64,000 nt of DNA, from positions 1 through 64,000 of the forward strand of contig CAMVMK010000001.1 of the NCBI GenBank assembly GCA_947168585.1, written 5' to 3'. Shown here piece by piece: positions 2,969-62,612 of the stretch; within the stretch, counting starts at the first letter, position 1, and every line of letters begins with the position of its first letter. The notes under the pieces are model-generated. The model was not told the DNA's origin, made no database searches, and worked only from the letters and a program-made list of their open reading frames with translations. The stretch comes from an uncultured Fretibacterium sp. Its GTDB lineage: Bacteria > Synergistota > Synergistia > Synergistales > Aminobacteriaceae. The translations under genes were made by a program, and so were the position numbers.

Positions 2969-3934
2969 TTAATTTATAATATCGATGAGTTTTTTTAATA
3001 AATTTTCGGGCGTGTCGTTTTCATAAAAAATTCTTGAATTTTTCGAGAGTTTTATAAATTCTTGAGCGTTTTTAACTTGATGATTGTCAGCTGCTCCCGG
3101 CCACGGAATAGATATTGCCGGGATTTTCCATTTAAGAATTTCAGCGAGCGTTGAACCTCCTGCGCGGCATACTATAACATCGCAGATTGAATAAAAAGGG
3201 TTCATATCCCATTGAGGCGGAATAAAATGAGCATTTTCTAAATTTTTGCGTTCGTGAGACAAAAAAATAAATTCAAAATTTTTACCTTTGCAGAGCCCTG
3301 CAGTTTTCAATAAAATTTCATTCAAAGGTCCGCTCCCTAATGAGCCTCCTGCAATGCCTATGATTTTTGAATCTGCTTTAATTTCAAGTCCTAAAATTTT
3401 CAACGCTTCTTCACGTTTTATTCTCACGGGTTCGCGTACGGGAATACCGACATAACTAAAATTATTTATGCCCTCGCAGGACGGCCAGCCCGTTATGATT
3501 TTCGCCAAATTAAATTTAGAAGCAAAACGTGTAACTTTACCTGCAACGGCGTTTTGTTCATGAAGAGTTACGGGAATTTTTTTCAATTTTGCTATTAAGA
3601 GCGGCGCAAATGAAACATAACCGCCGAATAAAAATATTTCATCGGGCTTAAAACTTTCTATAAATTTTTTTGCCTGAAAAAATGATTTTATTAACGCAAA
3701 AGATCTTGAAAAAATTTTGCTGATTGAACGTGTACCGAGCGGCGAACCTGAAATTGCAAGCCTAAAAGGATTTATTCCGGCTGAATTATAAATTTCTTTT
3801 TCAAGTTCACGTGAGCCGCAGAGCCATTCGACTTTACTGCCGTTTTTTTCAAGCTCTCGCCCGTAAACTATAGCCGGGAAAATATGTCCGCCTGTACCGC
3901 CTGAGGCGATTAAAAATTTTTTATTCGAGTTCAT
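2969..3934 (-). CDS. murG: UDP-GlcNAc:lipid I N-acetylglucosaminyltransferase (MurG)
   Basis: Adds GlcNAc to lipid I on the inner face of the membrane to make lipid II. The N-terminal GGTGGHIFPA loop (residues 12-21) and the C-terminal donor-binding region CRAGGSTLAEI with the SIPWPGAADNHQ stretch are the family hallmarks. At 321 aa it is shorter than the usual about 350. Its start overlaps the ftsW 3' end by 14 bp, so translation is probably coupled. It forms a murD-ftsW-murG trio detached from the rest of a division/cell-wall cluster. Confidence 0.95.
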   Translation of the reverse strand: MNSNKKFLIASGGTGGHIFPAIVYGRELEKNGSKVEWLCGSRELEKEIYNSAGINPFRLAISGSPLGTRSISKIFSRSFALIKSFFQAKKFIESFKPDEIFLFGGYVSFAPLLIAKLKKIPVTLHEQNAVAGKVTRFASKFNLAKIITGWPSCEGINNFSYVGIPVREPVRIKREEALKILGLEIKADSKIIGIAGGSLGSGPLNEILLKTAGLCKGKNFEFIFLSHERKNLENAHFIPPQWDMNPFYSICDVIVCRAGGSTLAEILKWKIPAISIPWPGAADNHQVKNAQEFIKLSKNSRIFYENDTPENLLKKLIDIIN

Positions 3935-6467: not shown

Positions 6468-7745
6468 TTAATCAACGACATCTAAAACTTCGTCTTCATT
6501 TTCGATTTTCGAAAGATTAAGCAGAGTTATTCTGTGGTCTTCGAGGGCTTCAACTTTGATACGCCAGCCGTTATATTCAAAAATTTCTCCTGCTTCAGGA
6601 AAACTTCCCGACAGCGTCAAAACTAAACCGCCTAAACTTTCAGCATCATCGCTTTCAAATTCAGAGCCTAATGCTTCGCTGAGATTTTCGAGACTTATTC
6701 CGCCTTGAACTTTATAAGAGCCGTCATCTAATTTTTGAATTTCGGGGGCTTCCTGGTCGTATTCGTCTTGAATTTCGCCTACAATCTGCTCCAAAATATC
6801 TTCCATTGTTACAAGACCTGCAACTCCGCCGTATTCGTCAACAATTATAGCTATATGAATATGCTCGCGCCTCATATTTTCGAGTAATTCAGCAGTTCTT
6901 ATAGTTTCGGGAACAAAAATAGGTTTGCGCAGTAAATTTCTAACTTCACATGTTAAATCGGAGTCCAAAAGATTTTTCAAAGTATCTTTGACGTATAAAA
7001 TTCCGATGATATTATCCGGGCTTTCTTCATAGACAGGCAGGCGCGAATGTCCTTCGTCAATAAAAATTTTCACGGCTTCAGCTAAAGTATCATCAGCCTC
7101 TAAAGCTATCATGTCCGTTCTTGGTATCATGATTTCATGAACTCTTGTTTCGTCAAAGTCAATAATTCCGTCAATCATTCGTCTTTCACTTGCTTCAAGA
7201 GCTCCGCTTTCCTCGCCGATTTTCACGAATTGTTCTATTTCGTCTCTCGTTACAAAAACCTGCTGAGTTCCTAAATCAATATGAAGCAAAATCCCGATAG
7301 CTTTAACACATTTTTTCATAGCCCAAGCTATAGGAGCAATTAAAACCGCTAAAACTCTCAATATCGGCGATGCAAAAATTAAAATATTTTCGGAGTAAAC
7401 CATAGCCGCGCTTTTAGGCAGAATTTCACCGAAGATAACTATTAAGACCGTCATCACAGGAACAACAAAAACTAAAGCACGGGAGCCGAAAATTTCAAGC
7501 ACTACACTCGAAGCTAATGCAGACGCTGAAATATTTACAACGTTATTAGCTATTAAACAGACAGTTAAAGCCTCTTGAGTGTCATCAATGAGCCATTGAA
7601 ACGTTGAATTTAAGAATTTATATTTATCCTGCTCCTGCAAAGTTCGGAGTTTTCCCGTTCCTGTTGCGGTTATTGAGGTTTCTGCACCGCTGAAAAATGC
7701 CGACAGCAAAAATAAAATCACAAAGCCTAAAATTATCCCTGTCAT
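6468..7745 (-). CDS. CNNM/CorC-type membrane protein with CBS pair
   Basis: 425 aa. An N-terminal DUF21/CNNM membrane domain with about four hydrophobic segments (residues 1-150) is followed by two CBS motifs (about 205-325) and a C-terminal CorC_HlyC domain. The sequence IPRTDMIALEADDTLAEA and the stretch DEYGGVAGLVTMEDILEQIVGEI are typical of the family once called hemolysin C and now linked to Mg/Co transport. It is translationally coupled to ybeY: its ATG lies inside the ybeY 3' end. Transport direction and ion are not decidable from sequence. Confidence 0.9.
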   Translation of the reverse strand: MTGIILGFVILFLLSAFFSGAETSITATGTGKLRTLQEQDKYKFLNSTFQWLIDDTQEALTVCLIANNVVNISASALASSVVLEIFGSRALVFVVPVMTVLIVIFGEILPKSAAMVYSENILIFASPILRVLAVLIAPIAWAMKKCVKAIGILLHIDLGTQQVFVTRDEIEQFVKIGEESGALEASERRMIDGIIDFDETRVHEIMIPRTDMIALEADDTLAEAVKIFIDEGHSRLPVYEESPDNIIGILYVKDTLKNLLDSDLTCEVRNLLRKPIFVPETIRTAELLENMRREHIHIAIIVDEYGGVAGLVTMEDILEQIVGEIQDEYDQEAPEIQKLDDGSYKVQGGISLENLSEALGSEFESDDAESLGGLVLTLSGSFPEAGEIFEYNGWRIKVEALEDHRITLLNLSKIENEDEVLDVVD

Positions 7746-28449: not shown

Positions 28450-30399
28450 TTATATAAGATGTTCTGCTGTCCTGCGAATTGTATAAGCTATGCCGTTCTC
28501 TTTATAACAGCGGATAAGGCCGCGAATTTTTCTCGGTATCCACGTAAAGAAACGTCCGAGTTTATAGCTCACTGATGAGTGAATAGCCGCAATCTCGCCC
28601 TCGTACCAAGCAACACGGTTTTCAAATTCGTTTTTAAGATTATCTATCTCAAAGTCGGCCTGCTCATGTTTCAAAATATCCTGAATGACGGGATAATAGC
28701 AGAGAATATTCTTAAAATGCTTAAAGAAAAAATTTTCTCCTTTGTTATTAATTTTCCAAAGAGCTTCGTCTTGAGTGCCGGGAATATAATCTAAATAATC
28801 TATGTGATTTTCAACTAAATTTACTTTGTATCCGTTCAAAATTCCCATCATCCAAAACCATATATCATCATTTGTAGGTGCTAATTTCATGAAAAGATCT
28901 TCGCGCGTAATATCTTTATAAAAACAATTCGGAGGGAAAAGACACCCAGCCCCGCTTCCAAGTTTATGCAGATATGAAGGCAAAAGATAAAATTTTTGTG
29001 AAGCAAGCGTAATAGTAATATCTTCCGGAGATTTATATTCAATTAATGTAACTCTGTGTGTGTGAATACAATCCGGTTTTAAGCGGTAAGCTCTTAATAA
29101 AAGCTCTACGCGGTTATTTTCGTAAAAAATATCATCATCGAAAGTAATAATTATTTCATCACTAAAAAATTCAAGTGCCGGAATAAGTTTTTTATAAGAT
29201 TTAATATCTTTTGTCCATCTTATTTCAAAAATATTTGACTGAAGCGATAAAAGTTCTGAGGGAAGCTCTTTTTCTTTTTCAGGAAATTCTGAATCAGCGA
29301 GCCAAAGAATTATTTTATCGGGGAGTATCGTTTGTTTAAGCAGAGTTTCTACAGCTTTATGAACTGTTCCTATTCTTTTTGGATATGACGTAAGCGAAAC
29401 AATTACCTTAGGGAAATAGGACATATCAAAATTTTCTTCAGCAGATTCTTTTGCAATTTGAATAAAATAATACAGCGGTTTACCAATCAGCTCTGCACGA
29501 ACATCATAAAAAACAGGAAGACCAAAAAATATTTTTCCTATCTCTTCATAAAACCATTCCCGTGCCCTACTGCCGTCTTTCGTATAATTATCCAATGCCC
29601 ATTTTAGATTTCCTGCAATAAAAGTCTGAACGGACGGTTTTATAATTTCGTAATGCGGTAATTTTCGGGCTTTATAATAAACGTTGCAGACAGCGGAAAT
29701 AACATTTTGCAGTTTAGATTGTATATATCCGCCGTTTTTTATTTTTGTTGTAATAGAATTAGTGACGTTAATTCTATAAGTATATAAAGATTCATAAAGA
29801 TAAGCAATTCTCGAAGCGCATGCTGAACATAAAGCCGAAAAAGTAATATCGTTAGACGATGAAAGAGGCTCAAAACGTAAATTCCATTTATTCAAAAATT
29901 CTCTGTCAATAACTTTATTCCAAACTGTAGGATTAATAATTGACATTATTTTTTCCGGATAATCCTCATAATTAAAAAAATTTTTTACCCCCCCCCACGA
30001 ATCTTTACGTTCTTCTATCGTTCCATCGTCCATATTTAAGCGGCAGTGATTAAAAAATACTATATCGGCTTTAGTTTCCGTGAGTTTTTCGTAAGCCTTT
30101 TCGAGCAGTGATAGATCGCAATAATCATCACTGTCAACAAAATATATATATTTTCCTGTTGCTGCGTCTATACCGGTATTTCTTGGAACACCGGCATATT
30201 TATTTTCCTGCGTTATAACTTTTAATCTTGGATCTTTTGCTTCATATTCGCGCAGTATTTTAAGTGAAGAGTCAGTAGAGCCGTCATCTACGCAGATTAT
30301 TTCTATATCTTTAAGCGTCTGATTTACCAAACTGTCTAAACATGCCGCTAAATATTTTTCAGTATTATAGACGGGCACAATGACGGAGATTTTAGGCAT
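28450..30399 (-). CDS. Two-domain family 2 glycosyltransferase with an in-frame G9 tract
   Basis: 649 aa. N-terminal GT-A domain (residues 1 to about 115) with SVIVPVYNTEKYLAACLDSL, CVDDGSTD and the DXD-like YFVDSDDY. A second glycosyltransferase-like domain from about residue 330 opens with PKVIVSLTSYPKRI and has its own FDDDIFY. It probably decorates a surface polysaccharide, flagellin or lipid. A run of nine G (29988-29996 on the complementary strand) encodes SWGGV near residue 134. One G less puts TAA in frame at once. It overlaps dxs by 8 bp. Acceptor unknown. Confidence 0.88.
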   Translation of the reverse strand: MPKISVIVPVYNTEKYLAACLDSLVNQTLKDIEIICVDDGSTDSSLKILREYEAKDPRLKVITQENKYAGVPRNTGIDAATGKYIYFVDSDDYCDLSLLEKAYEKLTETKADIVFFNHCRLNMDDGTIEERKDSWGGVKNFFNYEDYPEKIMSIINPTVWNKVIDREFLNKWNLRFEPLSSSNDITFSALCSACASRIAYLYESLYTYRINVTNSITTKIKNGGYIQSKLQNVISAVCNVYYKARKLPHYEIIKPSVQTFIAGNLKWALDNYTKDGSRAREWFYEEIGKIFFGLPVFYDVRAELIGKPLYYFIQIAKESAEENFDMSYFPKVIVSLTSYPKRIGTVHKAVETLLKQTILPDKIILWLADSEFPEKEKELPSELLSLQSNIFEIRWTKDIKSYKKLIPALEFFSDEIIITFDDDIFYENNRVELLLRAYRLKPDCIHTHRVTLIEYKSPEDITITLASQKFYLLPSYLHKLGSGAGCLFPPNCFYKDITREDLFMKLAPTNDDIWFWMMGILNGYKVNLVENHIDYLDYIPGTQDEALWKINNKGENFFFKHFKNILCYYPVIQDILKHEQADFEIDNLKNEFENRVAWYEGEIAAIHSSVSYKLGRFFTWIPRKIRGLIRCYKENGIAYTIRRTAEHLI

Positions 30400-51270: not shown

Positions 51271-51327
51271 AATTAGGAGTGAGGGGTTAGGAGTTAGAAA
51301 TGATTTTCTTAGCTCCTCATTTTTTAA
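51271..51327. repeat. Heptamer-type repeat with facing arm between lysS and acyltransferase
   Basis: AATTAGGAGTGAGGGGTTAG plus GAGTTAG (to 51297), then inverted AGCTCCTCATTTTTTAAG (51310-51327). On the minus strand this gives the acyltransferase TGA stop (51317-51319). Confidence 0.7.
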
Positions 51328-52315
51328 GGCTTAACAATCTCCCGAAAAGTATTTTGAAAATTTTTCCGTTCCGGCATAATTCTGAAATTGTTATCGAAAA
51401 TATAAAAGCCGTTAAAAAATTAATCACGATATTTAATCCGGTGTTGGACGTAACGATGATTCCAAAAAAGAAATTCTGCAAAATATAAATTTCTACGGAT
51501 CTTTTTCCAATTAATGAAAATAAAGATACGATTTTATTTCCGCAAAATTTTTCAATTACCTTTGCAATTACAAAAGAACACGCTATGCCCCCGAACGGAA
51601 TAATCCATCGATAAGCACGGGAAATTAATTTAAGGACGATCCCGTTCGTGAAATTTTCAATGTAAGGAATAAATAACGGTGCTTCAATTCTCCGCCAAAA
51701 ACATACAAGCGTGAGCCATATTAAAACAAAAACGACAGTGAGACCGTTTAGAAATTTTTTATTGAACGAAAGAACATAAAAACCGGAAAAGAAAAAAATT
51801 GAATGCCACGCAGTTAAATGCAAACCCATAATTGGTACAAAAAACGCAAGAATATTGACGGCAGCTATAATAAATAGTACAAAAAATAATTCAGTTACCC
51901 CCCCCACGTTAAATTTTTTCTTGATAAAGCTAATTAAATACAGCAGGCAGCTGATTTCAAATAAAACAAAAAGAAACCATAAACCGTGCTCCGGGCTTAT
52001 TAACAGTTCTTTCATGCTTGAAAAAAAAACGCTCCAATTTTTATTAAAGAAAAACGGTATAATTCCCCACGCAAAAAACGGGATTATTAAATTAAAAAAT
52101 CTCTTACGGAGCCAATCGGAATTAATTTCTGTTTTGCTGTATGAAACTGCAAGGCCGCTGATAAACATAAAAAGCGACATATGAAAAGAATATATCAGCC
52201 TAAAAATTATATTTTCGTCCATTGTTTCCGGATTTGCATATTGAATAGCATGGCCTAAAACAACAAGAAACATTGCATAGCCTCGAGTAATGTCTATTAT
52301 TTTATTTCGTTCCAT
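51317..52315 (-). CDS. Acyltransferase family 3 membrane protein with an in-frame G8 tract
   Basis: 332 aa with about ten transmembrane segments. Opening NKIIDITRGYAMFLVVLGHAIQY has the conserved GH...; SFHMSLFMFISGLAVSYS and WFLFVLFEISCLLYL follow. Such proteins add acetyl or other acyl groups to surface polysaccharides or lipids (OafA/WecH type). A run of eight G (51898-51905 on the complementary strand) encodes NVGGV near residue 138. One G less yields TAA at once; one more yields TGA two codons later. Flanked by lysS and a metQ-like gene, with no partner. Confidence 0.88.
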   Translation of the reverse strand: MERNKIIDITRGYAMFLVVLGHAIQYANPETMDENIIFRLIYSFHMSLFMFISGLAVSYSKTEINSDWLRKRFFNLIIPFFAWGIIPFFFNKNWSVFFSSMKELLISPEHGLWFLFVLFEISCLLYLISFIKKKFNVGGVTELFFVLFIIAAVNILAFFVPIMGLHLTAWHSIFFFSGFYVLSFNKKFLNGLTVVFVLIWLTLVCFWRRIEAPLFIPYIENFTNGIVLKLISRAYRWIIPFGGIACSFVIAKVIEKFCGNKIVSLFSLIGKRSVEIYILQNFFFGIIVTSNTGLNIVINFLTAFIFSITISELCRNGKIFKILFGRLLSLKK

Positions 52316-61600: not shown

Positions 61601-61715
61601 TTTTTCTGTTGAACTTGAACTTTTCAAAAATCATTTTATCATAACTATGATTATCTTGAAATGAACTCGGAAATATTGTTTAATAAACAAAAATTAAAAC
61701 TTAAAGGCGGAAAAA

Positions 61716-62612
61716 ATGAAATCACTTTTCAAAAAAGTAAGAGCAAGATGGCACGGAGACATTAATTCATATTTATGTAGGGATGAAATGCTCATTAAAA
61801 ATATTTTCTCCTACATTCAAAACGAAGTTGCCCTTAAATGGGGGGGGGTAAACGAATCGCAATTTAATTATCATAAAGCCTTGCACCAGCTGCTCCATGT
61901 GCGTAGAATTACTGATAATTTTAAGTACGAACGTTTAGGCAAAAATAATGACGGCGGCTACATTGCCGTAAGTGATAAAAACGGCAGTCTTTCAAGCTCT
62001 AAAATAGCTTACTCTTTCGGAATTGCGGACGATGTTTCTTTTGATTTAGACTTAGCTGCGCGCGGCTATGAAGTCTTTCAATATGATCACACGATTGAAA
62101 AACTCCCTCAAAATAACGGGCATTTTCACTGGAAAAAATCAGGCTTGGCGGCCTCTTCAAATCCTTCACAAAAACTTGAAACTTTAGAAAATATGCTCAA
62201 AGCGAACGGACACGAACACTCTTCGGGAATTTTCTTAAAAATGGATATTGAGGGCTATGAATGGGAAGTTTTTAATTCTTTAAGTTCAGATTTTCTTGAA
62301 AAATTTGATCAGATTGTTATCGAACTTCATGATAATCTTGATTATGACGAAAAAGTTATCGAAAAACATTTAAGCGCACTCGCAAAAATAGCGCAAACTC
62401 ATCAGGCCGTTCATGTCCACGCTAATAATGCCGGTTATGTAAATTATTGCGGAAATTTAGTTACGCCGGATTTAATTGAAGTAACTTACGTCTTGAAAAA
62501 TAAATATAAATTTTCTGATGATAAAGTTAAAAATGTCAGGCTTTCTCTCGATCATCCTAACGTTTCAGGCGATGATTTAGAGCTCGGATTTTGGAACGTT
62601 GAAGAAAATTAG
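61716..62612 (+). CDS. FkbM-like methyltransferase with an in-frame G9 tract
   Basis: 298 aa. The C-terminal half resembles FkbM-type SAM methyltransferases: GIFLKMDIEGYEWEVFNSL is the characteristic block, preceded by DGGYIAVSDKNG and KIAYSFGIADDVSFDLDLAARG. Such enzymes methylate sugars or surface glycans. A run of nine G (61840-61848) encodes K-W-G-G-V near residue 42. Losing one G gives TAA immediately; gaining one gives TAA six codons on. RBS AAAGGCGG. It stands alone between repeats. Confidence 0.82.
   Translation: MKSLFKKVRARWHGDINSYLCRDEMLIKNIFSYIQNEVALKWGGVNESQFNYHKALHQLLHVRRITDNFKYERLGKNNDGGYIAVSDKNGSLSSSKIAYSFGIADDVSFDLDLAARGYEVFQYDHTIEKLPQNNGHFHWKKSGLAASSNPSQKLETLENMLKANGHEHSSGIFLKMDIEGYEWEVFNSLSSDFLEKFDQIVIELHDNLDYDEKVIEKHLSALAKIAQTHQAVHVHANNAGYVNYCGNLVTPDLIEVTYVLKNKYKFSDDKVKNVRLSLDHPNVSGDDLELGFWNVEEN

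Follow-up and report, generated by a model that had tools for sequence, protein, structure and literature searches.

A tract of nine Gs close to the 5′ end of an FkbM-type methyltransferase gene in an uncultured Fretibacterium sp. (assembly GCA_947168585.1) appears to be a poly-G phase-variation switch (contingency locus), a reading to which we assign a probability of about 0.85 on the basis of sequence. The gene lies in the first 64,000 nucleotides of contig CAMVMK010000001.1, the whole of which was analysed and is referred to here as the window. Support comes from the tract itself, the frame consequences of a change in its length, the genome-wide enrichment of such tracts, a conserved position in a congener, and length differences between copies. 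Sequence comparisons further indicate that long G tracts in this genus obey lineage-specific DNA flank rules that are independent of the reading frame.

The focal G9 tract

The letters at 61839–61853 read T-GGGGGGGGG-TAAAC, with the G9 at 61840–61848. The original prediction placed this tract near the 5′ end of an FkbM-like methyltransferase gene, and both parts of the description hold. The tract begins at codon 42 of 298, and the protein matches Pfam PF05050 (Methyltransf_21, FkbM) over residues 152–220 with a score of 32.5 bits (cut-off 22.7, E 1.1e-7). The frame consequences it gave for a change of one nucleotide prove exact when the letters are read: loss of a G brings a TAA into frame at once, and gain of a G brings one into frame six codons on (Table 1). 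The predicted OFF peptides are ~44 and ~50 residues long, respectively. Because truncation at residue 44 or 50 falls ahead of the PF05050 match and of the domain start, which lies beyond residue 70, the catalytic domain would be lost in both OFF states, in line with the early on/off position originally proposed. A sequence search at E ≤ 0.01 found no solved structure related to this methyltransferase.

G8 words occur 5 times in the window, compared to 0.29 expected, and none of 100 shuffles contained at least 5. On the plus strand, the longest ordinary class of G run is G5 (7 runs), and the next is the single focal G9. In the mechanism we propose, replication strand slippage within the G9 would add or remove a G, and translation of the methyltransferase would move between the full product (G9, ON) and the ~44- or ~50-residue peptides (OFF). 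We infer the slippage, as well as the reversibility and frequency of switching. The FkbM-type enzyme would presumably methylate a sugar of a surface glycan.

Tracts across the genome and between copies

Across the 2.35 Mb of the host genome (in 110 contigs) there are 60 tracts of at least eight Gs. We examined the DNA around all 60 and assigned them to classes by fixed criteria: 37 lie within reading frames (16 in frame, 21 shifted), 10 lie in promoter spacers, and 13 fit neither class. The focal locus would be one of these ~60 tracts, which are proposed to switch genes by frame shift or by promoter spacer length. The glycosyltransferase and acyltransferase tracts that the original prediction also pointed to in the window are both present, and both are in frame as assembled. 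Its count of up to eight surface states rested on these three window tracts and is too modest, since the genome has 60. It also overlooked the promoter-spacer class and a TA dinucleotide shared by nearly all tracts on their 3′ side.

In the ten promoter-class tracts, a –35 box (TTGACA in nine, TTAACA in one) is followed by the G run and then, in 9/10 cases, by TAAAAT, with spacers of 15–21 bases. Nine of the tracts directly abut this –10-like element. The ten tracts likely represent phase-variable promoters. Genes behind them include one for a glycosyltransferase (L090) and one for a leucine-rich repeat protein (L082). Four viral contigs in IMG/VR (L102–L105) contain a TTGACA-N6-12-G8-TAAAAT stretch, possibly marking phase-variable promoters in phages or prophages.

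To compare tract lengths, we paired distinct tracts whose 80 flanking bases match at 54 or more positions. Lengths are unequal in 7 of 13 pairs. Unequal pairs include duplicate copies within this genome (L078, G6/G9; L089, G10/G9; L073/L074, G8/G9) as well as L068 and its counterpart L388 in congener G009 (G8/G11). Congener G021 has an ortholog of the focal gene (61% identity) with a G8 followed by TAC at the matching position, in frame and beside the same shikimate dehydrogenase-like gene. No tract occupies that position in less closely related FkbM homologs of the genus (41–46% identity). These comparisons support the view that tract lengths change over evolutionary time.

Two other explanations of the focal run were weighed against these data. 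One is that the run simply encodes an ordinary, invariant Gly-Gly stretch or is an artefact of assembly, as might be suspected from a single length at the site in an assembly that resembles a metagenome-assembled genome (MAG) and is split into 110 contigs. However, run lengths form two separate populations and are unequal between copies, G021 keeps the position with another length, and about half of the in-gene tracts are out of frame; we consider this explanation highly improbable. The other is that both frames arise from one DNA length through slippage of the ribosome, or slippage during transcription, at the G run, which would suit the high frequency of frame-shifted genes (21/37). Yet the DNA lengths themselves differ between copies, and tracts in promoter spacers cannot act via translation, making this explanation quite unlikely. 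A length-variable switch in the DNA is the reading we favor, and some points weigh against it. Tract lengths are equal in 6 of the 13 copy pairs, and the focal tract may be ON in most cells. Within the species, its length is known from one assembly only, with one length. Finally, an in-frame TTG lies 32 bases past the tract and could give a residual product when the gene is OFF, though no strong start was found.

Pfam matches above cut-off were obtained for 23 of 43 scanned tract-linked proteins. Sixteen of these are glycosyl-, acyl-, methyl- or glycerophosphotransferases, sugar-nucleotide enzymes or a flippase; the other seven comprise an M13 peptidase, leucine-rich or DUF6273 proteins, a Sel1 protein, a response regulator with an HD domain, a solute-binding protein and a symporter. 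Each of the genome's four FkbM genes has a G run with TA behind it: the focal G9, a shifted G8, an in-frame G9 and a shifted G6. L091 (minus strand, tract at 3038) has a G9 ~38 codons into a gene of ~900 codons, whose product gives a weak MAC/perforin match just under the Pfam cut-off. Three tracts lie close to the 3′ ends of long genes, with 500 (L059), 373 (L088, tract at 7115) and 721 (L096) open codons upstream, and could switch C-termini rather than turn genes off. The focal gene itself is flanked by a gene for an NAD(P)-binding protein on one side and by the shikimate dehydrogenase-like gene on the other, with no glycan cluster.

Table 1. Coordinates of the focal gene, its tract and related features (window positions unless a locus is named)
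Feature	Position	Strand	Remarks
FkbM-type methyltransferase gene	61716..62612	+	ATG-started open reading frame, 298 aa, in frame (ON) as assembled
AAGGCGG, likely ribosome-binding site	61704..61710	+	5 bases ahead of ATG; inferred from sequence
G9 tract	61840..61848	+	Codons 42–45; codon 42 is TGG
TA directly 3′ of focal G9	61849..61850	+	Common to 58/60 G≥8 tracts of the genome
TAA met at once on loss of one G	61849..61851	+	TGG GGG GGG TAA
TAA met on gain of one G	61865..61867	+	...GGT AAA CGA ATC GCA ATT TAA
G9 tract, then TAAAAA	29988..29996	-	Glycosyltransferase family 2 gene (Glycos_transf_2, 28450–30399, minus), in frame
G8 tract, then TAACTG	51898..51905	-	Acyltransferase family 3 gene (Acyl_transf_3, 51317–52315, minus), in frame
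Promoter-class tracts	L056, L062, L063, L077 (2971), L080, L081 (two), L082, L085, L090	L077 minus	TTGACA-like and TAAAAT-like boxes

Flanking sequence of long G tracts

TA directly follows 58 of the 60 G≥8 tracts, compared to 3–6% of G1–G5 runs in the same DNA. Intermediate runs show intermediate values, with TA after 5 of 30 G6 runs (among listed runs preceding A or T) and 4 of 8 G7 runs. When the 37 in-gene tracts are sorted by codon phase, TA is found as GTA-A in 17/17, as GGT-A in 12/12 and as in-frame TAT or TAC in 7/8, and promoter-spacer tracts likewise show a 3′ TA. Given that TA is present in every codon phase and in promoters, the rule must lie at the level of DNA rather than protein.

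Several simple accounts of the TA and of the tracts were rejected. Provision of an immediate stop codon cannot be the whole reason, because only in the GTA phase do all tracts have TAA (17/17), while the in-frame TAT or TAC (7/8) and the GGT-A followed by T or C (8/12) give no stop. Nor can TA be the start of a –10 box everywhere, as a –35 box is present only at the ten promoter-class tracts. Insertion of a mobile unit was set aside as the general case on the strength of one alignment, in which a tract-bearing GT11 gene and a G014 homolog without the tract are of equal length across the site. The tract therefore replaces sequence there, and is not an inserted unit.

We then considered other genomes. 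Congeners of this species include MAGs from the ruminant gut. The 36 congeners compared have 787 G≥8 tracts between them, of which 304 are followed by TA, versus 92 with AT directly before the tract (the reversed control). Across 24 genomes from other families, the corresponding TA count is 30 of 815. Runs of G10 or longer are common in most congeners (as many as 58; G020 has none), compared to 0–6 in the genomes of other families. The longest congener runs (G19–G23; L242, L247, L177) lie within ~30 bases of contig ends, as if the assembly breaks at length-variable tracts.

A second flank rule was seen in five congeners, where the pattern [CA]GTA[AT]NN occurs no more than 26 bases upstream of 91 of 164 distinct G≥10 tracts, compared to 469 of 10130 background windows, duplicate flanks having been merged prior to counting. 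The tracts included were nearly all of those in G042 (55/58 distinct), G024 (32/33) and G022 (34/36) and only part of those in G017 (22; genome 38) and G048 (21; genome 37). The motif, (T)ACGTAAWW, clusters 13–18 bases upstream of the tract, and motif search scores were 70–141 at tract flanks versus 34–50 for control stretches. It occupies two of the codon phases (15 and 21 of 37; in the third it would be a stop) and encodes unrelated peptides, and a protein-level cause was rejected on these grounds.

The motif pattern is present at only 3 of the 60 tracts of this species, and at none of 21 TA-type tracts from G009, G014 and G007, which were picked for having TA. Scanning contigs for TACGTAAWW-N6-9-G10 returned 48 stretches. 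Going by their titles, 28 belong to MAGs assigned to Synergistaceae, Synergistales or Fretibacterium, chiefly of ruminant-gut origin, and the remainder are scattered over other phyla. A scan of viral contigs with the motif gave 0 matches.

What causes these rules can be framed in three ways, of which we rank passive context as most likely, a dedicated factor as possible and copying with flanks as less likely. Tentatively, we favor the first: runs would outgrow ~G7 only where the neighboring letters favor replication slippage, and lineage differences in polymerase or repair would change the preferred neighbor. The share of runs followed by TA climbs with run length, and the GT11 homolog that lacks the tract aligns with no change in length, although that is one example. 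On the other hand, a motif 13–18 bases away is far for a nearest-neighbor effect. Moreover, ten tracts of Campylobacter jejuni printed in PMC7173850 are followed by T in six cases and A in four; a rule as strict as the TA rule is therefore not general.

The second possibility, which we regard as doubtful, is that hypermutable G tracts are generated or maintained by a dedicated sequence-specific factor (e.g. a nickase, a polymerase accessory protein or a binding protein) acting at its own site, in which case switching would be programmed rather than passive. Such a factor would fit the strength of the TA preference, its presence in three codon phases and in promoters, and the upstream motif, with its enrichment, tight distance, two codon phases and unrelated proteins. 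It would also fit the variation of the rule between lineages of one genus. The site of the factor might conceivably differ by lineage: the TA immediately 3′ of the tract in this species and maybe in certain congeners, ACGTAAWW 13–18 bases 5′ in others. Against this, the candidate enzyme is hypothetical, the motif is degenerate, 73 of the 164 congener tracts lack it under the pattern used, and passive context or copying could yield the same picture.

The third is that G runs are copied to new places within the genome together with their flanks, by template switching or short conversion, leaving the flank as a relic of the donor. Flanks are indeed lineage-specific, and several duplicate gene pairs carry tracts. 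But strict sharing in this species is limited to two letters, with the upstream side free, and the congener motif, besides being degenerate, fits the reading frame around it. We consider such copying unlikely.

Comparison with known systems

Campylobacter is a well-known case of poly-G switching (PMC6321876). As in the Campylobacter phasome described there with PhasomeIt, many G/C tracts of at least 7–8 lie in or before genes and would switch them by frame shift. Targets in Campylobacter likewise include capsule methyltransferases and glycosyltransferases, and PMC7173850 reports a variable tract in the methyltransferase Cj1420c. Campylobacter belongs to another phylum, and the ten C. jejuni tracts differ in the letters that follow them, as noted above. 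In Neisseria meningitidis, the length of a poly-G tract in the porA promoter sets expression, according to PMC3639595. The ten promoter-spacer tracts here similarly lie between the –35 and –10 boxes, at spacings of 15–21 bases, near 17 bp; unlike in porA, 9/10 directly abut TAAAAT, and the focal tract is in a coding region. Helicobacter canadensis is reported to have homopolymer tracts with C-terminal switching (PMC2823697), and resembles this genome in having homopolymer tracts in coding regions, some of which here are near gene ends.

Searches of open-access papers on phase variation in Synergist-named, Fretibacterium or Synergistota bacteria, on homopolymer tracts or slippage in Synergistetes, on flank effects and on printed G8-TA strings turned up no description of such a set. 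The switch alone is a further case of well-known poly-G switching, while the lineage-specific, frame-independent flanks match no described system in the open-access literature searched.

Homopolymer switches are thought to require only the run itself. Ordinary models of such switches leave unexplained why flanks are shared whatever the frame. A flank rule that is near-absolute, frame-independent and different between lineages would mean that something outside the run helps to decide where tracts arise or persist. The present observations add a phylum for which the open-access literature searched holds no paper on poly-G phase variation, and the flank rule would make it possible to call switchable genes of uncultured bacteria from a simple signature in the sequence. 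If a dedicated factor does exist, phase variation in this gut Synergistaceae genus would be written by machinery, and not left to passive slippage.
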